From: Apostichopus japonicus
Lineage: Eukaryota; Echinodermata; Holothuroidea; Aspidochirotida; Stichopodidae
Length of the DNA stretch: 64,000 bases
Direction: 5' to 3'
Assembly: GCF_037975245.1 (NCBI RefSeq)
Contig: NC_092565.1
Coordinates: 10,281,499 to 10,345,498 of the forward strand
Shown: in pieces, positions 18,701-52,813 of the stretch
How positions within the stretch are numbered: the stretch's first letter is position 1
How the letters are laid out: every line of letters begins with the position of its first letter
Position numbers and translations under genes: made by a program
Notes under the pieces: model-generated
What the model was told of the DNA's origin: nothing
The model's database searches: none
The model's input: only the letters and a program-made list of their open reading frames with translations

Positions 18701-21234
18701 AAATATGTTTGAGATGTCACTCAACTATATTTTTGTTACCCGTAATAATATTTTTGTTACCCGTAACATTTTAAAGGAAAGATAAATCTGTTACGTGGAC
18801 GTCGTGCGATAACTTTTGTCGCTGATCATTATTTGTGGCAATTCGTTACACAAAACGAGTTTTAGAATAATCAACAGCAAGTGATTGTTTATTCTTTAAT
18901 GATATTGTTGAGTATATTGTTCCTCTGACCTTCATGAACTATTAAAGACCATCTGTATAACCCTCAGATTTTTGCATGCTGTTTAATTACTGGAAGTTTT
19001 CAGTAGTACTTCTCTGATTCTTCGTATTACTCCCATCCATTGGAGAGGGTAAAAAGAAAGACCAAATAATTCTTAGCGAGGTAAACAACTTTGGCAATTA
19101 AATGCTTTGCTAAGTTGGTTAATAAGGGTGATCATTATCCGCCTGTGTAGCATATTTTGGGCTAATACTGATGACCATAAAGCAGATATATACACTTATA
19201 ATTTGTAGGCTATTTTGTCGCATTGCTCATGTTGAACATTTCAAATACCGCACTGAAATACACTTATCTATAATGGTTTCAGCTATGAACAAAACAAGAG
19301 TGTTTTATTGGTAGTATCCCTGAATGAGAAAAAGATAGGAACGGCTGGAGGTGATGTACTAAGTCACCCCATCGATGTTATTTTGTTCAACATCTTAGAA
19401 TGAGACAAGGTAACTTTCTCATCGCTGACTGATCCCGCGTACTGAAGAACATGTGTTCATCTGTGTGCCTAAAATTGGTCATCGCAACTGACGCTACGGC
19501 GTACAGCCTGCGTGGTATCGTCTTCTGCACCTGTGCTTCAGTTAGAATGGTGGTGTACTATAAACACAGAGGGTGGCCTAACCAGACCTGTCAAATTCAT
19601 TCAGTGCGACTTTACTTTGGTCATTAGGACCAATGCCAACAGAAGGCAGTAGTTGGTTACTATACACTCTCTCGAGAGCTGAAAAAAAAATTGAGATTAC
19701 ATCTCGAGGACGATGTTTGATGAACACACTGAGATGGTTGTAATTGCAATGAACACTTTCATTAATGAGTGTCGCATCGTGAAAGTATACGAGGGGTCGG
19801 GGTTGTTGCAGATGCCAATTTATACATGTGCTGATTTGTGAGTTAATGCACTTTTTGGTTTCTTGAAATGATTGGCATTTCGTGACCTACGTTTAGTAAT
19901 TAATACTTTTGTAGGCTTGACTTGCATGTAACTCACTTATGACAAAACGCTATTGGTTTGTGCTTCTTTGTATGTTTCGTAAGGTAAGGTATCTCCCTAT
20001 AGGGTCACTGATTGTATGTCGCTGATAAATGACAGCAAATTTAACAAAGCACATTAGTGAAAATAACACATAGGAAGGGTGAAACCAAAAGGTGCTTTAT
20101 GTGCATATATATCTATCAAAATATCTATCAATACATCTATCAATATATCTATCAATAGACGTTTGATAAAATACGTTCTTTGGCGTTTACGATGTCGGTA
20201 TATGGTTGTCTTTTTTTTCAGCTTTTAACACTTCCAATAAATATGTCATGCAAAACACGTGAAAATTAACAAATTGTTCCATCTCGTAGCTTCATAGGTT
20301 GTTGAGCGAAAACATATTTAGAGTTGTTTATGTGATTGCGCAAATAATTCTGCATGGTAATATTTAGACAATATGTAAATAATTGCTTTGTTTTCCTTAA
20401 TCATATTTGCAATGATTATCTGATTGTTTTTTTTTCTTTTCTGAAAGGCTATGCATGTTGGCAGTATGTTACAATATAGAACAAAGACAGTTTCATGCTG
20501 TGATTATGTACAACATCACAGATTCTTTTTCAATATATTTTGTTCCAAAACAAATAAATATATTTCAAACTTTTGTAGATCATCAACGGAACAAGATAAA
20601 AAGACAGGGGTTGAACCAATGGGTTTCTTTTTGCTTGTTCTCTTTTACATATTTATTAATCCTCAGACTTCGTTTTACCGAAAATATACCTCCAGTGAAA
20701 CCTTTGCAATGTACATATGGATTAATAGAGGGAGGTACACATAAATAAAATGAACCCGTAACAAGTAAGCGCAACTCTGGAAACTCCCTATCACAACAAA
20801 GACCGTTGAGTGGTCGATATATCTCGACATGCATTGACACAAATATGCAGAGAGACACATAACTTCAACTTTTGTACATCTTGGTAATTTCCTCTTAAAA
20901 CCAGCAGTGAATGTTGACTCATGATTCTATTTCTCGATATGTTAAATCACCTTACGAGACATCGATACAGTAACTTCTTCACCTCATCTGGAATTTGAAC
21001 TGTTTACTCAAAGTAAAGTTCCAATATGAAAGAGTTGCATCATGTGTATAGTAATCCATTTTTATCCTTCAAATAAAGACCTTATAGATACAATTTTGTC
21101 GTCAAGCAAGGTCAACATAACTTAACATCACGTACTAACAATCCAGTTTATAGTATATACTGTATAGTGTACATGGGGCGATACGTTGTCTTAAAACTTC
21201 AAATCAAGCCATATGTCGATGGAAATGTTTATAT
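12753..21234. other. long intergenic stretch, no supported gene
   Basis: About 8.5 kb with only short, low-quality open frames. Small landmarks are a C-rich tract at about 14918-14940, 16 C at 16983-16998, a short GA repeat near 18650, and four copies of a 12-bp ATCTATCAATAT-like unit at about 20110-20156. Confidence 0.45.
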
Positions 21235-21731
<497 letters not shown>

Positions 21732-25880: not shown

Positions 25881-26342
25881 CCAACTTTTGCAATTAAAAT
25901 ATGGGAATTAAAATGTGTATATAGCGCAGATGGTTTGTCATACTATATAATCATTTGATTCCGCTGAACTGTTATAACCCTTCTACATTATCTGAGCATA
26001 TAGGGAAAATAATTATACAGAAAATTGCATTTTCTTTCTGGAGAATGTAAAACGGGGTGAGTCACTATAAAAACGATGATAGTTGAAACGATGTTGAAAA
26101 TATAATATTCCTGGATTGAAATTTATAAAGATTTAATTCAACCAATGTAAAAAAGCTATGCCAATACTCACTGCACAGATCATTGACAAAATGTGTGTCT
26201 GTGTGTTAGAGAAGGAGATACCATAATATTTCTGAAATGTTTATTAAATGAACTCTTCATAAGTCGATTCAAATACCTTTAATTTGATTCACAATACAAC
26301 ATAATTTGTTCTAATAGTCTTCATCAGGGATTAGTTTGACAT

Positions 26343-26529
26343 GTGATATACAGAGTACTCATAAAACAGTCTGTTCTGCTTTTAAAGACTAAAGCAAATA
26401 AAATTCATGTAAACCGAATCAATCAATATGAAGGAAGTTACTGTGTAACTTATTGTACGCAAACATTACCTTTCGCTCCTTTCGGTTTTGGAAATATAGT
26501 TGTCAATATAGCGAATGCAAATTTATCAA
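26343..26529 (+). CDS. candidate exon ending at a strong donor
   Basis: An open block, possibly from the ATG at 26343, ends at ATCAA|GTAAGTG, a near-consensus donor. The later part reads YEGSYCVTYCTQTLPFAPFG, non-repetitive and secreted-like. The left end is uncertain: an internal acceptor such as TTTTAAAG near 26386 is also possible. No downstream exon was identified. Confidence 0.2.
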
Positions 26530-26579
26530 GTAAGTGATCAATCTATATTATCCATTGCTTTTGTGAAAAATATAAACTT

Positions 26580-27172
26580 TTGGTGTTGTAAATTTAAAAA
26601 CAATAAGTTGTAAAGGATGCAAATGTCCGCTTTGGAGAACACAAAACCCTTTTTCAAGAAATCGCTTCTCTACATTCAACAAAATGATAGAAACAATGTG
26701 ACAGTCCCAGAACAGAAGATCTAAAGTTTCTCCATGAACTTAAACTTAAAAAAGGAAAGAAAGCAATGATAAGACATAGGTCAGTGGTTCTCATAGTATA
26801 TAAGCGCCGATTGGTATCTAGAATGCCGCCAGTGTAAAAGCCGAAACGGAAAGTAGTGTCAAAATAATGTAGGCGTCTCTTACTGCATCTTATAAGGGGT
26901 GGGGTGGGGTAGAGTCTGAAAGAGGTACGCACAAGTTGTGACATAGTAAATGTCTTATATTATATTAAGGTTCCTGCAAAGTTGGAGTAATATCCATATA
27001 GATTCAGCAAAGTTGCAATATTTCTTGTTCTTCGTATTGAATTTCTACGAAACTCCGTCGTTACCTTTTTACCTTTGGGAAGAGAGACGAAAGGGAATGG
27101 GCGGCAAATATATGATTGCCTCCAGCTCCTGGGATCCTGATATTCTATGACTGGAATAAACAAGTTTACTAA
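26580..27172 (-). repeat. 3' flank of GT31 gene 1, paralogous to 3' flank of gene 3
   Basis: Read on the minus strand, this follows the stop codon of gene 1 and aligns for about 0.5 kb with 41600-42115 after gene 3. Shared blocks include 'tttatagttagta', 'caggatc', 'gcaggaacctta', 'acttgtgcgtacct', 'gacctatgtcttat' and 'gtgttctccaaag', in the same order with small indels. The duplication unit linking genes 1 and 3 therefore extends beyond the coding region. Gene 2 lacks this flank. Confidence 0.8.
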
Positions 27173-29119
27173 CTATAAACATGTTTCCTTGTTTTTATAT
27201 TTTAACCAGATGTATTTTAAGGAGATTGGAGTCTTGAACCCATGGAGCGTTAATGTATCTGGGTTTTGTAGGATGCATTTCTGCTTGTTAAATGATACTT
27301 TAAATCCCTTAAAATTGATCGGATGAACACCGATCTGTTCTGTAAGCATACCTTGGAAAGCGTCATCGATTGAAATTAGGGGAGTACTCAAAGACTTCTT
27401 AAACAACTCCGGTATGATATCATTGGATATAACATAAGAACCACCAGAGCAATACAACGGATAGAAATCTCCTGCAAAATAACTTTCATTGACGTAATAT
27501 CGACTCTTCGGATTCGATATTCTTGGACTGCCGGCCATGCTGCTTCCAACAAAGAATCGAGACATTTTCTCTTTGCCAGCTTTATCGGAAGTTTCTAACA
27601 AAAATCGTATAACATTTCTCCAAGCAACAAACATGTCCTCGTCACCTTTGTAAAGATATGCCGCGTCGGAGCAGAATTCAGTGGTCCATTTTAGACCTAA
27701 GACAACCTTTAGGGTTAAATTTTTGAAAGATTCCTGAAAGTTACCTTGGACTATGTCTCCGTATTTCTGTGCCTCTTTAGCCACCAATTCTTGAGTCATA
27801 GCTTCCTTCTCTCCTTCAACTTTACCAAGTATGAAGACATAGCGAACATTGCGACCTAAGAAGAGATGCTGCGAGCCCCACGTTTTACGTATCGCATTTC
27901 GTTGTTTGTAATTCCTTACATGAGAACTTATCAACGAAACGACAAACACGTTGTAATTTTTGTCTTTGACAGATGAACATAAAGTTTCGTTATTGTGAAG
28001 ATATTGTAAAACTTGATCGAAATATCTTTCGTTGTTAGTTTGTTTCGGTACGACCACATCGATGTCTGGAACTAAACATTTTCTAAGCTGCGTTGTATTC
28101 ACTAAGGCTTTCCATTGGATTTTGGGATCACTGATGTAAGTAAAAGTTGACATGGAAAGTCGCACTTCACAGGAGTGTATGTTAGGTTCCAGAGCCTGCG
28201 ATCCAAAGGAAGGGTCTAATTTGGTATTGATGTGAGTTTTACTTGCAAGAATTCCAAGAAAAACATCTGGGAATTTAATGAGAGTCTCGTTACGAGCAAA
28301 GAATAATACGTCTCTTACAGATGATGCAGACAATACAAAACCATTGTCTAAAGAACAAAAGTCTGGATATTGATCATCTTTGAATTCTTCACGACTAACA
28401 TAAAACGGACTTTGTTTATCCCTTACTGGTTTCATTCCTGACCTTAAAAAGCCCCGCCATATTCTCTTGTCACCATTATTTCTGTATGCCAAGTGCCTGT
28501 AAAGACGAGGGATATTCACGTATGTGTCATCCGTACCAATATATACGTCTACGGCAGATGGACAAGATCTGATCACGGAATAAAGTGAAAACAAAACTTT
28601 TATACTTTTCATCTTCGGGTTATCTTCAAAGTTGCCAATAACAACATCTCCGAACTCCTTAGATTCGTGTGTTGTAGTTTCATTGTCCACAATACCATTA
28701 GTATACTTTCCTCCCACAATAAACCAGAGGATAACATGCTCTGTAGACACAAGGGTTGAATTTGCCCATGTTCTTCTTATTGCGTCTCGAATACTACGTC
28801 TCGAAGGATGAGATAATACACATAAAAGTAATGTTGGCTTCTTGTCCCTGCAATCATCAAATGGTTTTGTAGATCCGATTGTTTGAAAATACTTCTTAAA
28901 CAAGTGATCGTTTTTGAATCTGTTGTTAGCCCAATCATCGCTGGTATCATCTCCTTCATGCCAAAATTTGAGGTCATAGATTTCTCGAAGGTACTTTGGC
29001 ACTTCTTTTAACTTGGATAAAGGTTGTTGGTTGCGTATGAACGTATATAAGTTGATCGCCTCCAAGCTACATATAAACACCATGCACGCGAAATAAAATC
29101 TTCGAACAGAGACTCGCAT
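27173..29119 (-). CDS. two-domain GT31 glycosyltransferase-like protein (gene 1)
   Basis: An intronless 648-codon ORF. Residues ~8-28 form a hydrophobic signal-anchor after MRVSVRR, as in Golgi type II enzymes. Domain 1 (~96-345) has RRSIRDAIRRTW (107-118), IGTDDTYVN (194-202), YPDFC (251-255) and FPDVFLG (283-289). Domain 2 (~389-630) has RNAIRKTWG (407-415), NFQESFKNLTLK (460-471), KGDEDMFV (491-498), YPLYCSGGSYVIS (553-565) and IDDAFQGM (584-591). These are the ordered motifs of GT31 beta-1,3-Gal/GlcNAc transferases, present twice, so the protein is about double the usual length. Domain 2 keeps D-x-D and the acidic pair; domain 1 has TDD and PD instead. I infer that domain 2 is catalytic and domain 1 degenerate or regulatory. 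Several N-x-S/T sites (ANST, NETT, NETL, NLT) fit a lumenal location. Donor and acceptor sugars cannot be read from sequence. Confidence 0.88.
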   Translation of the reverse strand: MRVSVRRFYFACMVFICSLEAINLYTFIRNQQPLSKLKEVPKYLREIYDLKFWHEGDDTSDDWANNRFKNDHLFKKYFQTIGSTKPFDDCRDKKPTLLLCVLSHPSRRSIRDAIRRTWANSTLVSTEHVILWFIVGGKYTNGIVDNETTTHESKEFGDVVIGNFEDNPKMKSIKVLFSLYSVIRSCPSAVDVYIGTDDTYVNIPRLYRHLAYRNNGDKRIWRGFLRSGMKPVRDKQSPFYVSREEFKDDQYPDFCSLDNGFVLSASSVRDVLFFARNETLIKFPDVFLGILASKTHINTKLDPSFGSQALEPNIHSCEVRLSMSTFTYISDPKIQWKALVNTTQLRKCLVPDIDVVVPKQTNNERYFDQVLQYLHNNETLCSSVKDKNYNVFVVSLISSHVRNYKQRNAIRKTWGSQHLFLGRNVRYVFILGKVEGEKEAMTQELVAKEAQKYGDIVQGNFQESFKNLTLKVVLGLKWTTEFCSDAAYLYKGDEDMFVAWRNVIRFLLETSDKAGKEKMSRFFVGSSMAGSPRISNPKSRYYVNESYFAGDFYPLYCSGGSYVISNDIIPELFKKSLSTPLISIDDAFQGMLTEQIGVHPINFKGFKVSFNKQKCILQNPDTLTLHGFKTPISLKYIWLKYKNKETCL

Positions 29120-29700
29120 ATTGGTATTCTATTAAAGTTATATACTATACAATTACCTCAACAATATTTAAGGTTCTATAAGTCTATGCACTGAACGTAC
29201 GATGCGAAAACATTTCTGTGAAGTTCATCAACAATTTATTTTCAAAATTGTCTTTTCGACTGTCATGTTAGTACTACTATGCCACGATGTATAGACAGAA
29301 ATATGTCGGTATATTTATATAATTATATATATATATATATAATTATATATTGATAAACAAATGATATTTATACATGTAACCATGAAGCGAAAGAAGAAAC
29401 AAAAGCAATAAATATATTTTCTCTGAACTGAGAGTTGTGTTGCACTTAAAAAATGTTATACGAAGAACAATAGGTATTTATCTTTGCCCTTGTATATCCA
29501 GGCATTTATATTATATTACTCATTAGCTCACGCCTGCACAAAATGTCGCCGAAGTGTGAATTGATTGTCATGCAACCTTCCCTGTTAAGTTGACCTTCGT
29601 AATTATTTTGTGTTCACCTGGCTACCACCTGTTACCTGTCCTCCACAGTTTCTGTTAATCAGTAATTTTACATTTTCTTCGATATTGGTGATATAAATTG
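29120..29700 (-). repeat. left arm (non-coding part) of inverted repeat upstream of gene 1
   Basis: Reverse complement of 30631-31276 in blocks: 'aatattgttgaggtaattg', 'ctctgaactgaga', 'cctgcacaaaa', 'gttaagttgaccttcgta', 'ggctaccacctgtta' and 'gatattggtgatataa'. The repeat then continues through the coding regions of genes 1 and 2. The arm also holds a short AT tract at about 29324-29342. Confidence 0.85.
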
Positions 29701-30630
29701 TTGCCGAAATGGAAAATTGATAATTCCATATAAAGAGTCAACGTTTCGAGATCAAACAGCCCAAAATTGTAATATAAAACGTCAAGCAACTGTAGAAATT
29801 TGCAGATCTTAAGTTGAAATTTTGAAAGTTTCATTTGGGCTATGAACCGTAACATCTACCAAAATAATTAATTCTTCTGGGTGAATACCCCAAGCCCCAT
29901 CTGTGTTTTTTCTTCTCCCTCACTTTTGGAGAGCTTCCTATGCGAATACTATGCATTTTGGACCCTACCGGATCAAGCGAGTGACAATTAGACCAAAGGG
30001 AAATTATTATAAAGGTATGAGTTGACCCAAATTCTCATTCTTCGTTCTTTTGTTTGTTGACATACTTTTCTCCAATGGCTTTCTGCCAGATTATTTAGCA
30101 GATATAGGCGTATAGGCGTATATAGAGCTGTCTTTTGGTATTAATGGATATTGAATTTTGTCAGTAATATGGAGATGTTAAATGTAAGAGTGAAAGTTGA
30201 AGATTTCCACATATTTTCTACAAAATCAGCAAAAAGAAAAAAATTAAATAACGAGAACCTGTGATTAACAGAATAATTCTTTTTTGAAAAATAAATATCC
30301 TATCTTTGGGACCAGAAAAGGGCGGGGGAAGGTAGATTTTTTAACTCACTACAATTTTAATGATATACCTCAGGAATGAAATAATCAGATGCTTATACGT
30401 TCAATCAAACCGGAGCCAAACTCGGGAATTTTGGCATTCCAAGGGGGAAGGCTAAACATTTGACTAACTCATGGAACTTCCCCTTCTACTGTATAATATC
30501 ATCACGTTAGTGAAGGTCTTTTTTGTTTATTTGTCCCATCTCTCAACCCCAATACCCAGACCACCCCTCTCCTCCTTCCCTTCCCCCCTCCGTCACTCCA
30601 TGGGGAATTTTTTTAATATGCCCTGCAGTT
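29701..30630. other. spacer between inverted-repeat arms
   Basis: About 930 bp of non-paralogous sequence separates the arms. It holds no supported gene. A C/T-rich stretch lies at 30540-30600. Confidence 0.55.
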
Positions 30631-31276
30631 TTCAATATTATATCACCAATATCGATGAAAATTTATAAAAGCTGATTTACTGAAACTGTGTGGGACAGTT
30701 AACAGGTGGTAGCCAGACGAACACATAAGTACGAAGGTCAACTTAACAGGGATAGTTGCACGACCACCAATTCACACTTCAGTGGCCTTTTGTGCAGGCG
30801 TGAGATCTTGAGTTATATAATACATATACCCGGATGAAAAAGGGCAAAGATCAATACATATTGTTCTTTGTATAACATTTGTTTTAATTACATATACTCG
30901 GATATTAAAATGCAAAGATCAATACATATTGTTCCTCGTATAAAATTTGTTTTAAGTGCAACATAAATCTCAGTTCAGAGAAAATATATATATTGTATCT
31001 GTTTCTTCTCTCCCTCCATGATTACATTTATAATTATCATTTCTATATCAGTAAAGAAATATTTCTGTCTTTAGTATCGTGTCATCGTACCGTAGTACTT
31101 CCGAGAACATGACTGTCAAATGTATAGATTTTTCGTTACGAAATTACAATTTTGAAATAAATCGTCGATGAGCTTCACAGAAATGTTGTCGCATTGTACG
31201 TTCAATGCATAGACGTATAGAACATTAAATATTGTTGACGTAATTGTATAGTAAAGACATTTGATAGAATACCAAT
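30631..31276 (+). repeat. right arm (non-coding part) of inverted repeat upstream of gene 2
   Basis: Counterpart of 29120-29700. It carries an extra internal tandem duplication of about 67 bp near 30821-30955: 'gcaaagatcaatacatattg' occurs twice, while the left arm has the equivalent only once. Immediately before the ATG both arms share 'tagaataccaat'. Confidence 0.85.
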
Positions 31277-33229
31277 ATGCGAGTCTCTGTTCGAAGATTT
31301 TATTTCGCGTGCGTTGTGTTTATAGGCAGCATGGAGGCGATCAACGTATTAACGTTCATACGCAACCAGCAACCTATATCCAAGTTAAAAGAAGTGCCAA
31401 AGTACCTTCGAGAAATCTATGACCTCAAATTTAGGCATGATGGAGATGATACCAGCGATGATTGGCGTGAATGGGTTAACAACAGATTCAAGAACGATCA
31501 CTTGTTTAAGAAGCATTTTCAAACAATCGGATCAACAAAACCATTTGATGATTGCAGGGATAAGAAGCCAACATTACTTTTATGTGTATTATCTCATCCT
31601 TCGAGACGTAGTATTCGAGACGCAATACGAACAACGTGGGCAAATTCAACCCTTGTGTCTACAGAGAATGTTATTCTATGGTTCATTGTGGGAAGAAATT
31701 CTATCAATGGTATTGTGGACAATGAAACTACAACACACGAATCTAAGGAGTTCGGAGATGTTGTTATTGGCAACTTTGAAGATAACCCGAAGATGGAAAG
31801 TATAAAAGTTTTGTTTTCACTTTATTCCGTGATCAGATCGTGTCCATCTGCCGTAGACGTATATATTGGTAATGATGACACATACGTGAATATCCCTCGT
31901 CTTTACAGGCACTTGGCATACAGAAATAATGGTGACAAGAGAATATGGAGTGGCTTCTTAAGGTCAGGAATGAAACCAGTAAGGGATAAACAAAGTCCTC
32001 TTTACGTTAGTCGTGAAGAATTCAAAGATGATAAGTATCCAGACTTTTGTTCTTTAGACAATGGTTTTGTATTGTCTGCATCATCTGTAAGAGATGTATT
32101 ATTCTTTGCTCGTAACGAGACTCTCATTAAATTCCCAGATGTTTTTCTTGGAATTCTTGCAAATAAAACTCACATCAATACAAAATTAGACCTTTCCTTT
32201 GGATCGCCGGTTTTTAGCGGTAATTTACCCCATTGTACTGTGCGTCTTTCAATGTCAACGTTTAGGTACCAAAGTAACCTGCTAAATCACTGGCAAGCCC
32301 TCGTTAATATCACAGAGCTTAAAAAGTGTACAATTCCTGATATTGATGTAGTCGTACCGAAGCGAACTAACAACGAAAGATATTTCGATCAAGTATTAAC
32401 ATATCTTCACAACAACGAAACTTTATGTTCATCTGTTCATGACGAATATGCCAACGTTTTTGTCGTTTCGTTGATTAGTTCTCATGTAAGGAATTACAAA
32501 CAACGAAATGCGATACGTGAAACGTGGGGCTCGCAGCATCTCTTCTTCGGTCGCAACGTTCGCTATGTCTTCATACTTGGTAAAAAGGAAGGAAAGAATG
32601 GAGCTATGATACAAGAATTGGTGGCTAAAGAGGCACAGAAATACGGAGACATAGTCCAAGGTAACTTTCAGGAATCTTTCAAAAATTTAACCTTAAAGGT
32701 TGTCTTAGGTTTAAAATGGACCACTGAATTCTGCTCTGATGCGGCGTATCTTTACAAGGGTGACGAGGACATGTTTGTAGCTTGGAGAAATGTTATACGA
32801 TTTTTGTTAGAAACTTCCGATAAAGCTGGCAAAGAGAAAATGTCTCGATTCTTTGTGGGAAGTAAAATGAGAGGCAGTCCAAGAATATCAAATCCAAAGG
32901 ATCGATATTACGTCAATGAAAGTTATTTTGCAGGAGATTTCTATCCGTTGTATTGCTCTGGTGGTTCTTATGTTATATCCAATGATATCATACCGGAGTT
33001 GTTTAAGAAGTCTTTGAGTACTCCCCTAATTCCAATCGATGACGCTTACCAAGGTATGCTTACAGAACAGATCGGAGTTCATCCGGTTGATCATAAGGGG
33101 TTTCGAGTTCTGTTCAAGAAAGGCTGTTTCTTACAAAGTCCAAAAACACTAACGCTCCATGGGTTTAAGTCATCGCAATCCTTAAGAAATATCTGGTCGA
33201 AGTACCAAGAGAACGAGAAATGTATATAA
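31277..33229 (+). CDS. two-domain GT31 glycosyltransferase-like protein (gene 2)
   Basis: An intronless 650-codon paralogue of gene 1 in opposite orientation, 2157 bp away head to head. The same layout holds: signal-anchor ~8-28, GT31-like domain 1, then domain 2. Differences include a three-residue insertion (DWREWVNN) near residue 64, IGNDDTYVN in place of IGTDDTYVN in domain 1, and a diverged inter-domain stretch (GSPVFSGNLPHC, YQSNLLNHWQALVNITELKK) and C terminus (KGCFLQSPKTLTLHGFKSSQ). Domain 2 keeps KGDEDMFV, YPLYCSGGSYVIS and IDDAYQGM. The first ~300 residues and the core of domain 2 stay very close to gene 1. The probable role is Golgi beta-1,3-linked sugar transfer. The intact frame and conserved motifs argue against a pseudogene. 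Confidence 0.88.
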   Translation: MRVSVRRFYFACVVFIGSMEAINVLTFIRNQQPISKLKEVPKYLREIYDLKFRHDGDDTSDDWREWVNNRFKNDHLFKKHFQTIGSTKPFDDCRDKKPTLLLCVLSHPSRRSIRDAIRTTWANSTLVSTENVILWFIVGRNSINGIVDNETTTHESKEFGDVVIGNFEDNPKMESIKVLFSLYSVIRSCPSAVDVYIGNDDTYVNIPRLYRHLAYRNNGDKRIWSGFLRSGMKPVRDKQSPLYVSREEFKDDKYPDFCSLDNGFVLSASSVRDVLFFARNETLIKFPDVFLGILANKTHINTKLDLSFGSPVFSGNLPHCTVRLSMSTFRYQSNLLNHWQALVNITELKKCTIPDIDVVVPKRTNNERYFDQVLTYLHNNETLCSSVHDEYANVFVVSLISSHVRNYKQRNAIRETWGSQHLFFGRNVRYVFILGKKEGKNGAMIQELVAKEAQKYGDIVQGNFQESFKNLTLKVVLGLKWTTEFCSDAAYLYKGDEDMFVAWRNVIRFLLETSDKAGKEKMSRFFVGSKMRGSPRISNPKDRYYVNESYFAGDFYPLYCSGGSYVISNDIIPELFKKSLSTPLIPIDDAYQGMLTEQIGVHPVDHKGFRVLFKKGCFLQSPKTLTLHGFKSSQSLRNIWSKYQENEKCI

Positions 33230-34119
33230 AATGACATATTGAATTAGTAATGATTCCACAGTTTACTCGATAGTTGATTGTTATGTTGTGATTTATGCCG
33301 TAATAAGACGAGAACAGCAGAAAATTTGTTATACCTTAAATCAACTTTTCGATTATAATACGTAAATCGTTCTATACCAACTTAGTTGATACTGAAATCC
33401 TTTTACAATGAACTCCATTAGCTCGATTAGCCAATGGTCAATCCAGTAATGAAGTACAACAAAAGTAAACAATGTGATTTTGTTTGTTTTCTAATCATTC
33501 TGCTTTAATTTAATTTTTTATTATTAATATACTAATGTGCTTAAATCTTGTTGCCAAAATATGACCGACCACACATTATTTTGCTGGGTATTCTTTATTA
33601 AATAATTCCAGGAAGGTATTTCATTTTGAAGAACAGCAGTCATTGTGTTTTGAGCTATATCTCGTCGATTTGATCAATTTTTCGACTAAACATTAGAGAC
33701 TGTTTAAAATTCGTATGAATATACATTGACATAAACATTAACACCGTTGACATCCATTGATTACACTCGCAAAGATACATTCAAACCTAATCAATGACGT
33801 GCGCAATAGCGTGGAGTAAAGTGCCCCCACCCCTCCCTCAACTCCAGTCGCATGAGAACCGGCTGATCCAGTATTTGCTCTATACAAGAAGGGGAGACAA
33901 AACTTTATTGCTCTTAACTTGCTATACTGAAAAGCTGAAAAGGGTCATCGGTTCTTCAGCCCAGGCTTAAACCAAAAGGGTTTCTGGTTTTCCGACTCAG
34001 ATATTGTCCGCATAATGACGCATTTACATTTTGAGCAATAGATCACAATATTGTTATGCCTGTTCAAGGTCCGAATTGACCTCAAGTATTTCTTCAACGT
34101 ATTTCTTCCTTTATGTTGA
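33230..34119. other. unassigned sequence 3' of gene 2
   Basis: No similarity to the 3' flanks of genes 1 and 3 was seen, so the duplication block ends at or near the stop codon here. No gene is supported. Confidence 0.5.
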
Positions 34120-34820
34120 TGAGTCTTTGTGGGTCCTGTGTGGAATATTGGTGGGTTCTTTGAGGGACTCACACAGTGCCAGCCTGGGCAGTGCACATGT
34201 GGCCCAACTAACCCACACATGGCCTGTCGGGGTCAATTTGGGCAACCTTTGTGGGACCTACACGGTTTTTTCCACCAGACCCATTTCGGACTCATGTTGG
34301 CATACCCAGTTGGGAAAATGTTGGGTCTTAAATGTGCCAGCTATGGGCTAGAACTGTTGGGATATATATATATATATATATATATAGGCTATATATATAG
34401 GCTATATATATAGGCTATATATATATATATAGGCTATATATATAGGCTATATATATATATATATATATATGGGTCCTATCTAGGTCACAAACAACATATT
34501 AGTGTGTTCTTTGTAGGGCTTACACAGCTCAAAACCATACAGCCCACATAGGACCCACCTGGGCAAACTCTATGAGGCCAAAACGGAAACCCCCATGGGT
34601 TCTACACAGTTTGTCTGCATGCCTGGTCTGTCTTGGTCCCATGTGGGTTAACGTTCACTGGGTTTTGTGGGTTATATGGCCCCAAGTAGGAAAATCTGTG
34701 TGACATACTTTAGGGTCCTACACAGACCCCATATGTGCAACCCTTTTGGGATAATAATGGTTCCTGTACAGCTAATATAGGTCTGAAATAGGCAACCCGC
34801 CTGGGCAAAACTCTTTGGGA
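34120..34820. repeat. degenerate GGG-C-TACACAG repeat tract with AT/AGGCTATAT core
   Basis: The word GGGNCYTACACAG recurs in diverged form (agggactcacacag, gggacctacacgg, agggcttacacag, gggttctacacag, gggtcctacacag) among many tgtgggtcc, ctgggcaa and cccacat words. An (AT)n block with four 'aggctatata' inserts sits at about 34360-34470. It looks like an old decayed minisatellite. The 91-106 codon ORFs across it are incidental. Confidence 0.6.
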
Positions 34821-34939
34821 TATGGATATTGAAAGAAAATTGACATTACCTAGCCCTCGGCATTGGAACCAAAAACTATACTTCCCAGCAACTCAAAAAC
34901 TGCAATGCAGGCTTTCAAATTAACAGCAATATAACTGAG

Positions 34940-35115
34940 TACGAGTATGATCAGATGTGACACTTACATTGACAGGAAGTCCACTTAAAACTTTCTGAAC
35001 ACGATTAGCAAATACGTATGTGCGTTCCTGATCAGTTGTGACAAATACTGTGAGAGAAGGTCCACTTCAACTTACTGAACACGATCGGCAAATACATATA
35101 TTCGTGCCTTGAATA
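34940..35115. repeat. tandem duplication, ~83 bp
   Basis: 'tgatcagatgtgaca ... gtccactt ... ctgaacacgattagcaaata' at about 34947 is repeated from about 35030 with substitutions (tgatcagttgtgaca, gtccacttcaactt, ctgaacacgatcggcaaata). Confidence 0.75.
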
Positions 35116-35264
35116 CAGTATAGGCTAAGTGAGCGATGTGTAAGTTCTCTATTCTTTCTGTGCAAGGAAGTTTGACACTATAACTAGGTCAGTAGCAAAC
35201 AAATTACATAAAAAGTGAAAAAGTTAATAATCAGAACCCCTTATGCGAACTTTACTAGCCTCCA

Positions 35265-35740
35265 TGACAAAAGCACATGGGGCCCATATGTATCTTACCT
35301 GGTATTATCATAGTGAAAGCCAATGTGGAGCCCATATTTTACCCACATGGAACACGACTGGGCATCCCTTGGTTTACCCGCCCTAATTTGCCCATGTCAA
35401 AGCCATGTAATACTACATATGGAACTCAGTCATCCCAGAGTTAGCCCACATTAGTTTACTCATCGTAGCCCGCATTCAACCCACATTAATTGTGCATAGG
35501 CCTTGCAGTTAGGCTAAGCAAGGATGCCATAGTTAGCCTACACATCTTTGCCCAAACATGTTTAATTAATGACAAATATAACACGGAGCCCTAGTAGTAT
35601 ATCCATGGTTAGCACCACGATGCAAATGGCTTTCACCATCAATTGCCCATGTATATCTTACATTTCAATCACTTGTAACACAACTGGGCAGGCCTTGGTT
35701 TACCCACACTAATTTGCCCACATTGGGCCACAAGGTTGTG
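35265..35740. repeat. degenerate CCCACAT/CCCATGT word-rich tract
   Basis: Words such as 'gcccatat', 'acccacatgg', 'gcccacatt', 'ttggtttacccrc' and 'taatttgccca' recur irregularly. 'gggca..ccttggtttacc' occurs near 35350 and 35685. It is probably the same or a related decayed repeat as 34120-34820. Confidence 0.45.
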
Positions 35741-36943
35741 ATGGCTTGATCGGTGGGGGTCCCTCATCGACCTCCCACACCTGGACTCCAATACCTTTTA
35801 TTTGATGTACATGGGAAGACCATTGCCGGTCAACCATTAACCCCTGCTTTAGGATCATGATTTTTTTTTTTGGGGGGGGGGGGGAGTTTTCAGAGATTTT
35901 CTTACACTTGGCACATAAAGTCGGAGAAAATTGGAAGAATGAGAATTGTTTTGTTTTTTTAGATAATAAAATAAAATGAGTAGGTTTCTTCTTGAGCATA
36001 TATAACAATTAAGTGCATTGTGTCGATCTATCTGTGATGACTGTGCAGATGGCAATTTTCTCGCTTATATATACGCTAACCTTTATCTAAGCAGTGCAAC
36101 TGCATAAACAGGTGGATTGCTTCCATCAAGGAATCACCCACCAAACCAGTCAATACAATATTGACTACGGCGGCAAAAACAGAAAATAAACTTGAACAGC
36201 GCCGTCTGTTTGTTACTTGGCTACTGTAATGCATTCCTGCACTGGATTTGTAAAGGTAACTACCACACATGTTTACTCTCTTTAATTACAGTCACAAAAG
36301 GAAATAGTTGTGTTTCAGGGGATTGTTTACAGATAGTCTGACATAGAACTGTGAGAATGCGTTGAAGTGCCAGTAATTTCCAGACGTAACATTTCAGTAT
36401 CTAAAGTATGGTTGTGTTGAATGTTGGTGTTGCCTAATATGTCTTTCGCAGAGGTCAATTGGGATAAAAAAAGAAAGAAAGATGAATAAAATAATGATTG
36501 ACAAAAGACTGCAGAATTATCTAATCCTGTCTTTCAGGTGAACCATTTGTTCGGACATTCCTTGACAAATTTAACCTTTCAGTTTACTAATTTCCACTGT
36601 GCATATACATTCCCTTTGTTCAGAACGTATGTAGAGTCAGTGACGTACCAGGCGTGGGGGGGGGGGGGCAGGGGAGTGCAATGCCATGCCACATATTGAT
36701 CATATTATCAGTTTTAAGCTTTGCCAAAGTGTGCACTCGTTGCTGGATCCTATAACTTCTTCACATTACTTTAACTTTGACGAGTCAGTAACAACATACA
36801 ACCATAGAGGTAAAACCTCCGTGATTCAACCATTTCATGTGTTGCATCCATTTCCTATTGAAAGGACTCGTAATACCCACTGGAATACCCATACTGGACG
36901 TAACTCATCGTCATGACCACGTGATTATACACTCTCGATGTTT
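35741..36943. other. unassigned sequence
   Basis: A T/G run at about 35861-35883 and a G run at about 36656-36668. No gene is supported. Confidence 0.45.
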
Positions 36944-37184
36944 GAGAGTTGGGCTTGAGAGTTGGGCTTGAGAGTTGGGCTTGAGAGTTGGGCATGAGAG
37001 TTGGGCTTGAGAGTTGGGCTTGAGAGTTGGGCTTGAGAGTTGGGCTTGAGAGTTGGGCTTGAGAGTTGGGCTTGAGAGTTGGGCTTGAGAGTTGGGCTTG
37101 AGAGTTGGGCTTGAGAGTTGGCTTGAGAGTTGGGCTTGAGAGTTGGGCTTGAGAGTTGGGCTTGAGAGTTGGGCTTGAGAGTTG
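36944..37184. repeat. 15-bp minisatellite, about 16 copies
   Basis: Unit GAGAGTTGGGCTTGA. One copy has GGGCATGA and one has lost a G (14 bp); otherwise the units are identical, pointing to recent homogenisation. The minus-strand ORF (SPTLKPNSQAQLS repeats) arises because 15 is a multiple of three. There are no spacers, so it is not a CRISPR-like array. Confidence 0.95.
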
Positions 37185-37716
37185 ATCAAGTTGTGCACTT
37201 CAAGCTCTTCCTTGAGTAACTTCTCTTCAGCAGCACATGTCGGAATCTTTACATGTTGTTGAAGCTGAATAACGAAGCCAGAAAGGAGAAGTCAATATTT
37301 GCATTCACAAAGTCATCGAAAGGTACATATTACTGGGATGAAATATTTCCTTCAGTTTACCACGGAAACTAAGAACTCAGTAAATCAATATCTAAACTGA
37401 ATGTCTCATCGCTATCCCTGCTTCGCGTGCTTTGTCATAGCAACGTAGTTAAACGATCAAATATACAACTACCACGGACAACAGTGTCTTGTGACTACGG
37501 TCTTATTTATCACCCGATACTCGAACAGTAGTTACTGTTCTAGCTATGAGAATCGGGTGTATTTATCGATTACGCTATTCCTTCTCTGACAAATTTCAAT
37601 CGCAATAAATAAACGAGTTCGGAGATTACCCTGTGCGCGCGGTATTCATGTCCGCATATATGTCGGTAATTTATTCATCTCATTGTTACACATCCGGGCA
37701 ACGTTTCCATTGTGAA
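37185..37716. other. unassigned sequence
   Basis: No gene or repeat is supported. Confidence 0.45.
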
Positions 37717-37780
37717 GTCAACCAGCGCATCTTGTTTCGAATTGGAAAACAAAGGCAATTCCATGCAGTAGGCTTTGGAC

Positions 37781-37870
<90 letters not shown>

Positions 37871-37900
37871 TGTCCAAAGCCTACTGCATGGCTTTGGACA

Positions 37901-37966
<66 letters not shown>

Positions 37967-38031
37967 TGTCCAAAGCCTACTGCATGGAATTGCCTTTGTT
38001 TTCCAATTCGAAACAAGATGCGCTGGTTGAC
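37717..38031. mobile_element. perfect 68-bp inverted repeat enclosing (AT)n arrays
   Basis: The left arm 37717-37784 (gtcaaccagcgcatcttg ... ggctttggacaatt) and right arm 37964-38031 (aattgtccaaagcctactg ... cgctggttgac) are exact reverse complements. Between them are two long AT tracts separated by a third, partial copy of the arm end (aattgtccaaagcctactgc then ggctttggacaatt). A transcript would fold into a long perfect hairpin. It may be a MITE whose palindromic core expanded, or a fold-back produced by inverted duplication around an AT microsatellite. Another AT tract follows. Confidence 0.85.
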
Positions 38032-38580
38032 TATATATATATATATATATATGTTTAATATTGTGCGTCCATCGTGCCCCACGTAGGCTAACATGTCCAC
38101 TTTTAAAAAGTGACTTCAAGCGCAATGTTGATGTTGGTACCTCGGCGTTATAGACCGTTAAAAAAACACGACCTTCAGTGCAGGTGGTATTACTATACCA
38201 CCAATGAGGTTTTGGAAATGACGTTTGTCCTGGTAGATTCATCAATTGAGGTGATTAGATAATTATGCAAAACATAACTTTACGGGAAAACAGTGCACTT
38301 TTATGAACTCAAATGACAGGTTTACAATGTATTGGAAATTCGTCGATGACAAATGGAGTTCACATCACTAAAAGGGCCACATGTGCATTTAGAGGGGGAG
38401 GGGGGGGGGCATTTGAGCATTGGAGTGAAGAGCCGTTTTCATGCATCGAGGAACATTGTTGGAAAATGTGTGTTAAGAGAGATTAAGATTCAAATGACCA
38501 AAACATCTAGTTCTTCGTGGGAAATTTGATGTGGGAAATTGAAAGTAACATAAAAAATGGGCATAATGGCAGCAAACCGA

Positions 38581-38584
<4 letters not shown>
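38032..38584. other. unassigned sequence
   Basis: A short (AT)n continuation to about 38052 and a G run near 38395-38409. No gene. Confidence 0.45.

Positions 38585-38663
<79 letters not shown>
38585..38663. repeat. (AT)n microsatellite
   Basis: About 39 uninterrupted AT units followed by acacacaca. Confidence 0.95.
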
Positions 38664-38673
<10 letters not shown>

Positions 38674-39133
38674 TATGTGTGTGTAGCTAGTATTTACGGG
38701 GAAATTATCATCGCTCTTCCTTTGACGACTCGTAGTGAGTTTGTAATTTTAGTTGTACTTAGCGTAGGCTGCCTTCAACTAGCAACGATGACAATTTATA
38801 GCATCAGTGATCTGGGGAGTTGATGATGTATATGTTTCTTTAGTAAGCGCGTTACGTAATAAAAGGAATTTGCTATAGTATCCTCTTGTGTGCCCTTTTC
38901 CCTATTACCTTGACTTCCGTTGGTAACCGTTCATACCGTATTACAGTACAATGCAGCAGATAATTTGCTGTCTTTCCTTGGTTTATATCAAGTTAATGGC
39001 TTCAATATTTTTGACAACGGATCGATCGATTCAATATGCCTAGACAGTACTTGCTTTGACAAAGCCTTTCCTCGGCCTAGCGAAGAACTCAAACTAGCAT
39101 TGATCGTCGACATGGCGATTATTAAATACATAT

Positions 39134-39134
<1 letters not shown>
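38664..39134. other. unassigned sequence between AT tracts
   Basis: No supported gene. An open frame across part of it continues into the AT tract and is not convincing. Confidence 0.4.
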
Positions 39135-39652
<518 letters not shown>

Positions 39653-41599
39653 ATGAGAGTCTCTGTTCGTAGATTATTTTTTACATCTATTCTGTTTTTA
39701 GCTAGCCTTAAGCTAATTACTCTTTTCACGCTGCTGAATCATTATGAGAGTTTTTCCACGTTCAAAAAGATGCCTCGCTATCTTCAAAAAATTTATAGCC
39801 GGAAATTTTGGCAAGATGGAGATGAAGTTTGGCGTGATTGGGCTAACGACAGATTCAAAAACGATCACTTGTTTAAGAAGTATTTTCAAACAATCGGATC
39901 AACAAAACCCTTTGATGATTGCAGGGACAAGAAGCCAACATTGGTTTTATGTGTATTATCTCATCCTTCGAGACGTAGTATTCGAGACGCAATAAGGAGA
40001 ACATGGGCAAATTCAACCCTTGTGTCTACAGAGAATGTTATCCTATGGTTTATTGTGGGAGGAAAGTATACCAATGGTATTGTGGACAATGAAACTACAA
40101 TACACGAATCTAAGGAGTTCGGAGATGTTGTTATTGGCAACTTTGAAGATCACCCGAAGATGGAAAGTATCAAAGTTTTGTTTTCACTTTATTCCGTGAT
40201 CAGATCTTGTCCATCTGCCGTAGACGTATATATTGGTACAGATGACACATACGTGAACATCCCTCGTCTTTACAAGCACTTGGCATACAGATACAATGAC
40301 GACAAGAGAATATGGAGTGGCTTCTTAAGGTCAGGAATGAAACCAGTAAGGGATAAACAAAGTCCGTTTTACGTTAGTCGTGAAGAATTCAAAGATGATC
40401 AATATCCAGACTTTTGTTCTTTAGACAATGGTTTTGTATTGTCTGCATCATCTGTTAGAGACGTATTATTCTTTGCTCGTAACGAGACTCTCATTGAATT
40501 CCCAGATGTTTTTCTTGGAATTCTTGCAAGTAAAACTCACATAAATACCAAATTAGACCCTTCCTTTGGATCGCAGGCTCTGAAACCTAACATAAACACT
40601 TGTAGAGTGCGACTTTCCATGTCAACTTTTACTTACATCAGTGATCCTGAAAAGCATTGGAAAGCCCTAGTGAATACAACGCAGCTTAAAAAATGCTTAG
40701 TTCCAGATATCGATGTGGTCGTACCGAAAAAAACTAACAACAAAAGATATTTCGATCAAGTTTTACAATATCTTCACAATAACGAAACTTTATGTTCATC
40801 TGCAAAAGACAAAAATTACAACGTGTTTGTTGTTTCATTGATAAGTTCTCATGTGTCTAACTTCGAACAACGAAATGCGATACGTGAAACGTGGGGCTCG
40901 CAGCATCTATTCTTGGGTCGCAACGTTCGCTATGTATTCATACTTGCTAAAGTCGAAGGAAAGAATGAAGCTATGATACAAGAATTGGTGGCTAAAGAGG
41001 CACAGAAATACGGAGACATAGTCCAAGGTAACTTTCAGGAATCTTTCAAAAATCTAACCTTAAAGGTTGTCTTAGGTTTAAAATGGACCACTGAATTCTG
41101 CTCTGATGTGGCGTATCTTTACAAGGGTGACGAGGACATGTTCGTAGCTTGGAGAAATGTTATACGATTTTTGTTAGAAACTTCCGATAAAGCTGGCAAA
41201 GAGAAAATGTCTCGATTCTTTGTTGGAAGCAAAATGGCCGGCAGTAGAAGAATAGCGAATCCGAAGAGTCGATACTACGTCAATGAAAGTTATTTTGCAG
41301 GAGATTTCTATCCGATGTATTGCTCTGGTGGTTCTTATGTTATATCCAATGATATCTTACCGGAGTTGTTTAAGAAGTCTTTTAGTACTCCCCTTATTCC
41401 AATCGACGACGCTTTCCAAGGTATGCTTACAGAACAGATCGGGGTCCATCCGATTCATTTTGAGGGATTTAAAGTATCATTTAAGAAGCAAGATTGCATC
41501 CTACAAAACCCAGATACATTAACGCTCCATGGGTTCAAGACTCCAATCTCCTTAAAAGACACCTGGTCAAAATATCAAAACAAGGAAACATGTTTATAG
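39653..41599 (+). CDS. two-domain GT31 glycosyltransferase-like protein (gene 3)
   Basis: A third intronless ORF, 648 codons, same two-domain layout. Residues 1-7 match the other two (MRVSVRR). Residues 8-66, covering the membrane anchor and stem, are diverged (LFFTSILFLASLKLITLFTL). From RFKNDHLFKKYFQ (67) onward it closely matches gene 1, including the inter-domain part (LSMSTFTYISDP, ALVNTTQLKKCLVPDIDVVV) and C terminus (ILQNPDTLTLHGFKTPISLK). Domain 1 carries IGTDDTYVN and FPDVFLG. Domain 2 carries KGDEDMFV, YPMYCSGGSYVIS and IDDAFQGM. By family it is a Golgi beta-1,3-glycosyltransferase. The different anchor and stem could change Golgi sub-location or complex partners (inference). Confidence 0.88.
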   Translation: MRVSVRRLFFTSILFLASLKLITLFTLLNHYESFSTFKKMPRYLQKIYSRKFWQDGDEVWRDWANDRFKNDHLFKKYFQTIGSTKPFDDCRDKKPTLVLCVLSHPSRRSIRDAIRRTWANSTLVSTENVILWFIVGGKYTNGIVDNETTIHESKEFGDVVIGNFEDHPKMESIKVLFSLYSVIRSCPSAVDVYIGTDDTYVNIPRLYKHLAYRYNDDKRIWSGFLRSGMKPVRDKQSPFYVSREEFKDDQYPDFCSLDNGFVLSASSVRDVLFFARNETLIEFPDVFLGILASKTHINTKLDPSFGSQALKPNINTCRVRLSMSTFTYISDPEKHWKALVNTTQLKKCLVPDIDVVVPKKTNNKRYFDQVLQYLHNNETLCSSAKDKNYNVFVVSLISSHVSNFEQRNAIRETWGSQHLFLGRNVRYVFILAKVEGKNEAMIQELVAKEAQKYGDIVQGNFQESFKNLTLKVVLGLKWTTEFCSDVAYLYKGDEDMFVAWRNVIRFLLETSDKAGKEKMSRFFVGSKMAGSRRIANPKSRYYVNESYFAGDFYPMYCSGGSYVISNDILPELFKKSFSTPLIPIDDAFQGMLTEQIGVHPIHFEGFKVSFKKQDCILQNPDTLTLHGFKTPISLKDTWSKYQNKETCL

Positions 41600-42115
41600 T
41601 TAGTACACAGGATCAGGATCGCATGTGCTGGAGTTATTCAAATATTCACCCCCCCCCCCTCTCCCCCCCCCCCCAACTTAGCTGGTCTGCAGAGATATTA
41701 CCACAATTTGCAGGAACCTTACTATTATATAAAACATTTGCTATGTCATAACTTGTGCGTACCTTATTCAGACTCTATAACACCCCCTCTCTCTCTCCCT
41801 TAATTTAAGAAATGCCGTGAGCGATGCCAAGATTATTTACACTATTTTCAGTTTCAGTTTTTACAGAATTCTATATACCAATTTGCGTTAATATACTATG
41901 AGAATCACCGACCTATGTCTTATTTTTTATTTAATTTTTTATTCAAAATTCATGGATAACTTTAGATCACCTGGTTTGGAACTGTCACATTGTTTCTCCT
42001 GTTTTGTTGGATGTAGGGAAGAGATTTCTTGGTAATTGTTTTGTGTTCTCCAAAGAAGACATTTTGTTATGTTTTAAACAATAAATTAAGCATCCTTTAC
42101 AACTATTGTTTTTTT
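41600..42115 (+). repeat. 3' flank of gene 3, paralogous to 3' flank of gene 1
   Basis: Aligns in blocks with the reverse complement of 26580-27172 (see that entry). The gene 3 copy has lost about 27 bp shortly after the stop codon and has gained a C-rich tract at about 41650-41672. Confidence 0.8.
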
Positions 42116-42622
42116 TATCGTTAACATGAAAAAACAATGCCTTATATCTATTTGTGATTTTACTTAAATGTTTAAATTCGCATTCGCTTTTCACAAGTAT
42201 ATTTTCAAGTCGAAATTTTATTTTGCATACAATGACTTACGCACAAACTTCCCTCATTTTGATTGATTCTAGTTATCTGAATTTATTTGTTTTTAGTCTG
42301 TAAAGGCGGAAAAGACTGTATCTCAATACTCTGCATATCACATGTCATTTAATTTAAAATTATTCTAAAATAAAGTTTGGATGAAAAGCCTAGTTAATAT
42401 TCAGTACTTTAATTAAACAACTGTTCGTCCTTGTTCTTATAAAACAACAAATCGTACTGAGCCTAATGAACAAGTACATGAAGATTCTAGAGAGAACGAC
42501 AGCTAACTAATGAAATAATCGAGTTTTAAACAAGTTTTTAGTTTTCTTCTTCTTTTCCCTATAAATTTGTAAAAAGGTGATGACAGTTCTGTTGGTGATA
42601 TAGATTATATATATATATATAT
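42116..42622. other. unassigned sequence
   Basis: AT-rich, no gene supported. It ends in a short AT tract leading into the GATA array. Confidence 0.45.
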
Positions 42623-43857
<1,235 letters not shown>

Positions 43858-44574
43858 TAGATATTGATATAGATATAATATATATATATATATTGATATA
43901 TATTGATATATATATATTGATATATAGATATATATTTGTGTGTGTACGTGTGTGCGTGTGTGAGCGTGCTATTAATAATTTTGTATTCAAGTCTTTGAGT
44001 TGAGAATTTTTAATGTTGACATCATAAATTGACGTATATATAGTCTTACTCTGTAAACAATCACGTGATATTCGATCGATTTTTCAGTGATAACCTCCGC
44101 CACGTAGCCTGCTTGCTGCAAAACCTAGGCTTTAGATAACAGGAAATGTAAAAGGGATTTTAGAAGTTTCGAAAATTCAGTATTTTCCAATACATTTATC
44201 AGTATAGTCCAATATTCACATGACATGAAATTCATATTTACAGATGATATTGTACTCTCTCTCCACCTCTCTCTCTCTCTCTCTTTAATAATTAGCTGTT
44301 AAAATATGGAACAGGTGTGTCCAGGTTAGTTGATAACCTATCTTTTCAATAATTCGTTCGTTAATTAATTTTTATAAAACTATATAATGTCATTTTTTAT
44401 CTTTTTAAGATCTATAATGTTATCTAATTACAGGGCATGAGGCTTTATTAAATATTTGATATTCCTGATTTCTCTACTCCTGCAGTATTTACACAATCGA
44501 AGCTTTAGGAAGTATAATCAAACGAGAATATGGACAGGTGTACTTGTAGGTAAACGTACATTGCAATTATCCAA
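43858..44574. other. unassigned sequence
   Basis: Begins with degenerate TATTGATATA repeats and a GTGTGTG stretch. A (CT)n microsatellite lies at about 44255-44285. No gene. Confidence 0.45.

Positions 44575-47426: not shown

Positions 47427-52813
<5,387 letters not shown>

Follow-up and report, generated by a model that had tools for sequence, protein, structure and literature searches.

A degenerate N-terminal domain in two-domain GT31 proteins of the sea cucumber Apostichopus japonicus, a probable pseudo-glycosyltransferase

Introduction

The locus described here raises the question of why a glycosyltransferase of family GT31 should have two GT31 domains in one chain, and whether both are likely to be catalytic. 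It is a stretch of 64,000 nucleotides from Apostichopus japonicus (assembly GCF_037975245.1, contig NC_092565.1, positions 10,281,499 to 10,345,498 of the forward strand), referred to below as the window. A preliminary description, made from the letters of the window, had placed in it three open reading frames (ORFs), each encoding two GT31 domains, and had suggested for the N-terminal domain (domain 1) either a pseudo-domain beside an active C-terminal domain (domain 2), or a different use of donor or metal. We find that the proteins do have two domains each, that losses of active-site residues in domain 1 recur in three lineages of the genome, and that the window copies of domain 1 are under purifying selection. 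Sequence comparison leads us to prefer, at a probability of about 0.68, the reading that these are beta-1,3-glycosyltransferases belonging to the B3GALT/B3GNT branch of the family, with a retained N-terminal pseudo-glycosyltransferase that would support domain 2.

Results

The two-domain genes of the window

We name the three genes W27, W31 and W39. Their features are listed here, and the state of the landmarks is taken from the residue table described below.

27173-29119, minus strand: W27, two-domain PF01762 gene, a single ORF of 648 residues with two PF01762 stretches (236.8 bits)
28223-28789, minus strand: W27 domain 1, degenerate (TDD, PDV, no C-terminal histidine); PF01762 90.5 bits, residues 111-299
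27314-27907, minus strand: W27 domain 2, landmarks intact (DED, DD, C-terminal histidine); PF01762 residues 405-602
29036-29092, minus strand: hydrophobic segment of W27, residues 10-28, probable type II signal anchor, from a 19-residue hydropathy window
31277-33229, plus strand: W31, two-domain PF01762 gene, a single ORF of 650 residues (237.6 bits)
31616-32182, plus strand: W31 domain 1, degenerate, with NDD at 31871-31879 and the PD of PDV at 32135-32140; PF01762 90.2 bits, residues 114-302
32498-33091, plus strand: W31 domain 2, landmarks intact; PF01762 residues 408-605
39653-41599, plus strand: W39, two-domain PF01762 gene, a single ORF of 648 residues (228.4 bits)
39983-40549, plus strand: W39 domain 1, degenerate (TDD, PDV, no C-terminal histidine); PF01762 89.2 bits, residues 111-299
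40865-41461, plus strand: W39 domain 2, landmarks intact; PF01762 residues 405-603

All three ORFs run uninterrupted from ATG to stop. The claim of two GT31 domains per protein was borne out when the halves were scanned singly against PF01762, the window copies scoring 89-91 bits in domain 1 and 143-151 bits in domain 2, and over the five two-domain proteins of the genome all 10 halves are above the curated cut-off of 23 bits (62-168 bits). Matches of the two-domain proteins to solved GT31 chains are strong. In phmmer comparisons W31 domain 2 scores nearly equally with B3GNT2 (about 1e-37, 133.6 bits) and B3GALT5 (about 2e-36, 129.1 bits), and W31 domain 1 gives 8e-26 (94.5 bits) with B3GALT5 and 7.8e-12 (48.7 bits) with B3GNT2.

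The hydrophobic segment of W27 is the highest hydropathy window of that protein (1.81, the best later window being 1.11) and has an equivalent position in W31 and W39. The most hydrophobic window is the N-terminal segment in all five two-domain proteins, and in the window copies a short basic start precedes it. The window proteins are probably type II membrane enzymes, and we infer a Golgi location for them.

The PF01762 family in the genome

The genome (671,581,487 bases in 35 contigs, the window being on contig C5) was searched with the PF01762 profile in six frames and without intron models, a procedure that favours single-ORF genes and may miss split ones. There were 29 matches, one of which, a 43-position fragment with internal stops, is excluded from all counts. 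The remaining 28 domains belong to 18 single-domain genes and five two-domain proteins, giving 23 intact-frame genes. Two of these proteins are outside the window on the same contig. L024 has 709 residues and is at C5:10.363 Mb, some 17 kb after the window ends, and L012 has 720 residues and is at C5:18.007 Mb, 7.7 Mb from the window. The statement that B3GALT/B3GNT proteins typically have one domain thus holds for 18 of the 23 genes, and a two-domain protein, B3GLCT, is known in another branch. The genes had also been called intronless, and single ORFs they are, but this is ordinary, as the 18 single-domain genes are single ORFs as well. In eight flanking stretches no further GT31 fragments were found beyond one weak match (E 0.002), at L036:3001-3129 on the opposite strand, to the part of L012 around its N-terminal anchor; it is possibly the remnant of a copy.

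Active-site residues of the two domains

For the residue table the 28 genomic domains were aligned with stretches of the solved B3GNT2 and B3GALT5 chains, and B3GNT2 numbering is used throughout. In B3GNT2 as described in PMC7948508, the uracil is held by D215 and K223, the ribose by D246 and the metal by D247 and H376. D333 serves as the catalytic base, and D245 and D332 lie by the donor sugar or in the catalytic site; the loss in kcat/Km given there is 14,100-fold for D245A, 3,680-fold for D332A and 15,800-fold for D333A. For the equivalents in B3GALT5, PMC11969544 describes Asp156, Glu242 and Tyr128 as touching galactose and Asp158 and His285 as touching Mn. Five landmarks were scored, namely D245, D247, an acid at D332, D333 and H376, the last being the C-terminal histidine (C-His).

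All five landmarks are present in domain 2 of each of the five proteins and in 15 of the 18 single-domain genes, and in no domain 1 (0/5). In the case of domain 2 the DxD, the xED with its base Asp and the C-His are there in 5/5. Below, the residues of domain 1 are given for W27, W31, W39, L012 and L024 in turn.

D245 position: T, N, T, D, N; first Asp of DxD lost in four of five
D247 position: D, D, D, H, E; changed in two of five
D332 position: P, P, P, P, S; first acid of xED lost in all five
F217 position: P, P, P, T, M; donor-site aromatic lost in all five
H376 position: S, S, S, R, G; C-His lost in all five

D215, K223, D246 and the catalytic base D333 are retained in all five domains 1. 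An acid at D332 is found in 0/5 domains 1 against 23/23 other genomic domains (Fisher p 1e-5, or 5e-4 if the window copies are counted once) and a C-His in 0/5 against 21/23 (Fisher p 2e-4), the rows being related by descent, so that these tests are a guide only.

The motif letters given in the preliminary description are correct, with TDD or NDD and PDVFLG in domain 1 and DED and DDAFQG or DDAYQG in domain 2. However they do not amount to two complete sets of landmarks, as domain 1 has neither the C-His nor the aromatic residue two positions after the uracil Asp. TDD and NDD do depart from D-x-D at the first Asp, but they align on D245-D246-D247 of B3GNT2 and keep the metal-ligand Asp, and similarly PDVFLG has lost the first acid of xED but kept the Asp of the catalytic base. 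The asymmetry of the two domains is real, and as judged from the alignment domain 1 has a standard site in which some residues have been exchanged.

Among the single-domain genes the exceptions are L023, which has HDD (His at D245), L025, which has PDD (Pro at D245) and Gln at the C-His, both with xED kept, and L028 (C22:4.619 Mb), which has lost the DxD (ECS), the C-His and most of the landmarks and has kept ED. L028 is possibly a single-domain pseudo-glycosyltransferase in its own right.

Selection and divergence

By the Nei-Gojobori method the ratio of nonsynonymous to synonymous divergence (dN/dS) of the domain 1 core is 0.34, 0.27 and 0.35 for the pairs W27-W31, W27-W39 and W31-W39, with upper 95% limits all below 0.63, and that of the domain 2 core is 0.31, 0.18 and 0.32. 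Of the 2,000 codon bootstraps run per pair, no more than 0.1% had a ratio of 1 or more. The YN00 values for the same pairs are 0.27, 0.27 and 0.34 for the domain 1 core and 0.43, 0.23 and 0.34 for the domain 2 core. The ratio is unreliable in short pieces, as in the C-terminal tail, where the pair W27-W39 gives 1.99. Within the close copies of the window domain 1 is under purifying selection. Over longer times it diverges faster than domain 2: with L012 the window proteins share about 30% identity over domain 1 against 48% over domain 2, and with L024 about 24% against 34-37%.

Mosaic structure of the window copies

Synonymous divergence (Nei-Gojobori) among the window copies is patchy. In both cores it is 0.10-0.23, but in the N-terminal 90 residues it is 0.74 for W27 versus W39 and 0.09 for W27 versus W31, in the C-terminal tail 2.3 for W27 versus W31 and 0.04 for W27 versus W39, and in the linker 0.68-0.72 for W31 versus the other two. 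With YN00 the contrasts are smaller, the N-terminal value being 0.36 and the linker value 0.54. The differences are clustered beyond permutation in all three pairs, both for all differences and for synonymous ones (p 0.0006 or less, 5,000 permutations). The flanks of W27 are homologous to those of different neighbours.

29120-29700, no strand assigned: upstream flank of W27, inverted homologue of the upstream flank of W31 at 30633-31276
26337-27015, no strand assigned: downstream flank of W27, inverted homologue of 41674-42347 downstream of W39 (blastn 72.6%)

The blastn identity of 27174-29700 with 33228-30633 is 85.5%. Over 26337-42347 W27 and W31 stand head to head, with the 5' end and upstream flank of W27 like W31, and its 3' end and downstream flank like W39. 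W27 looks to be a mosaic, and the cores of the window copies look to have been homogenised, most simply by gene conversion. As the copies are mosaic, the three paralogues count as about one observation, and the independent weight for the asymmetry comes from L012 and L024.

Origin of the tandem

A single inserted residue immediately ahead of the glycine-rich loop is present in all five domains 1 and in none of the 25 other rows (23 genomic domains and two PDB chains). In the trees, from which L027 was left out as nearly identical to L026, bootstrap support is 96-99% for a group of the window and L012 domains 1 and 87-93% for one of the five domains 2; L024 domain 1 is on a very long branch. 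The shared insertion and these groups speak for a single, old origin of the tandem, and a single group of five domains 1 is not rejected by the approximately unbiased test (p-AU 0.225). An internal duplication, with domains 1 and 2 as one group, is neither shown nor rejected (p-AU 0.417 and 0.382), and the group appears, with support of 57/10, when four long rows are omitted; besides L027, the last tree leaves out L024 domain 1, L026 and L028.

We considered that domain 1 might be B3GALT-like and domain 2 B3GNT-like, as in a former two-sugar polymerase. Domain 1 of W31 has its best score with B3GALT5, as given above, and so by a slight margin has that of L024 (69.3 bits, B3GNT2 61.8), but L012 domain 1 prefers B3GNT2 (112 bits, B3GALT5 105), and the proposal was rejected.

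Discussion

The suggestion of a pseudo-domain beside an active domain stands in so far as domain 1 is degenerate and under purifying selection and domain 2 is intact, but the argument from three paralogues fails in the form given, the copies being mosaic, and is saved by L012 and L024. On the reading that we prefer, domain 2 would carry out catalysis, presumably joining a sugar to its acceptor through a beta-1,3 bond. Domain 1, which keeps the family signature, the uracil Asp and Lys and the base Asp, and is without the donor-sugar residues and the full set of metal-site residues, would most likely be an intramolecular scaffold, a folding partner or an acceptor-docking module for domain 2. A part of this kind is among those put forward for the GT-like N-terminal domain of B3GLCT. 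We infer both its inactivity and its supporting role.

The main rival is that domain 1 is itself a working transferase whose chemistry has changed, with another donor sugar and weaker or no metal binding, and the protein bifunctional. It could draw on the base Asp and uracil contacts in 5/5 domains 1, on a possible metal-ligand acid in 4/5 if the Glu of L024 is counted, and on the purifying selection itself; PMC7185993 describes independent loss of the C-His in several GT-A clades, and B3GLCT is described in PMC8233153 as functioning with ethylenediaminetetraacetic acid present. However each lineage has changes at three to four active-site positions, mostly to different residues, which is better explained by relaxation at a catalytic site than by a new site of one specificity. 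The faster divergence of domain 1 also counts against this rival, and we regard an active domain 1 as unlikely; a different use of donor or metal looks less likely than a pseudo-domain. The same losses and faster divergence would suit a decaying relic without a role, carried along by selection on domain 2. The dN/dS values of the domain 1 core and their bootstraps argue against a relic, as do the open frames in 5/5 proteins of three old lineages, and we consider it improbable. That the tandem is an artefact of assembly, two single-domain genes having been joined, has nothing found in its favour and is hardly credible with an identical layout at five loci in three lineages, and with frames open throughout. 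There is also the family of B3GLCT, the beta-1,3-glucosyltransferase with two GT31 domains, which we take to match the Fringe-type Pfam model PF02434. Both halves of the sea cucumber proteins match PF01762, but PF02434 was matched by only 2/10 halves, at 12.5 and 17 bits against a cut-off of 21, and membership of that family is thus very unlikely, even with the like layout and degenerate N-terminal domain described for B3GLCT in PMC8233153.

Several observations weigh against a pseudo-glycosyltransferase supporting domain 2. The domains 1 of the window retain the metal-ligand Asp and catalytic base, so that activity is possible, and the Glu at D247 of L024 domain 1 could also ligate a metal. 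The exceptions L023, L025 and L028 vary at the same positions, and a swapped first Asp alone is thus no proof of inactivity. D215 and K223 may be retained for structural reasons and argue only weakly for binding of uridine diphosphate (UDP), because both are conserved almost everywhere, with an acid at D215 in all 28 domains and Lys at K223 in 27, the degenerate L028 included. In all five domains 2 the K149 of B3GNT2 is replaced by Ser, a change that bears on the donor of domain 2. The AlphaFold2 models have a mean predicted local distance difference test score of 28.2 for domain 1 (6-row alignment) and 28.5 for the full-length protein (3-row alignment), values too low for the models to be used. 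Finally, a group uniting the five domains 1 is absent from the best tree and occurs in no more than 2-3% of 200 bootstrap trees, so that a single origin rests on the shared insertion and the layout.

With regard to known systems, the landmarks of B3GNT2 and B3GALT5 are present in domain 2, but those are single-domain proteins, and the sea cucumber proteins add a degenerate copy in front. LARGE1/2 and COLGALT1/2 belong to GT families other than GT31. These proteins too have two tandem GT-A domains per chain, the N-domain of LARGE being in GT8 (both as given in PMC7185993). B3GLCT is the closest precedent, with a GT-like N-terminal domain having altered landmarks and a complete C-terminal domain, but as described in PMC8233153 its N-terminal motif is EEE, as against T/N/D-D-D/H/E in the sea cucumber proteins. 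In the text of that paper on the N-terminal domain its role is left open between enzyme, substrate recognition and chaperone, it is stated that neither domain could be expressed alone, and B3GLCT is called unique in GT31 for its two GT domains, citing Petit et al. 2021. COSMC (C1GALT1C1) is described in PMC7185993 as a GT31 protein without catalytic motifs that is a chaperone for an active relative, but it is a separate protein acting in trans, whereas the sea cucumber domains are fused in one chain. In the pairing of CHSY1/3 with CHPF/CHPF2 there is an active subunit and a non-catalytic partner thought to be stabilising (PMC12748766); the labour is thus divided in trans, as with COSMC, but the domains are GT31 plus GT7 and the complex is a heterodimer, and CHSY is described as polymerising with two active sites, which is not indicated here. 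The likeness to polymerising two-domain synthases that had been drawn is thus not upheld, as those use two complete sites and domain 1 is complete in none of the five.

Among the papers listed in searches of the open-access PMC literature we found no described two-domain protein of B3GALT/B3GNT type, which is no proof of absence. If our preferred reading is right, there would be a second GT31 tandem with a like asymmetry, in the animal B3GALT/B3GNT branch, and the arrangement would be a repeated solution and not an accident. It would also provide a system for testing the role of a pseudo-glycosyltransferase domain by deletion, and the three mosaic and two divergent copies are a natural series for study of such a domain. 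It is a speculation, and a doubtful one, that the tandem is separate from B3GLCT and that domain 1, with a UDP pocket but no acids to hold the sugar, is built in to sense UDP or to hold the glycan and so governs how processive domain 2 is.

Other features of the window

A 1,287-base tandem duplication at 7472-10044 is 100% identical and either happened very recently or is an artefact of the assembly. On the minus strand at 47430-49937 there is an actin gene split by introns, as each of the four open pieces that were scanned corresponds to a different part of PF00022. A very long microsatellite of tetranucleotide type, over 1 kb by eye and read as YLSI repeats, is at 42507-44083, and other simple repeats lie within 391-956, 21195-21596 and 37609-39372.

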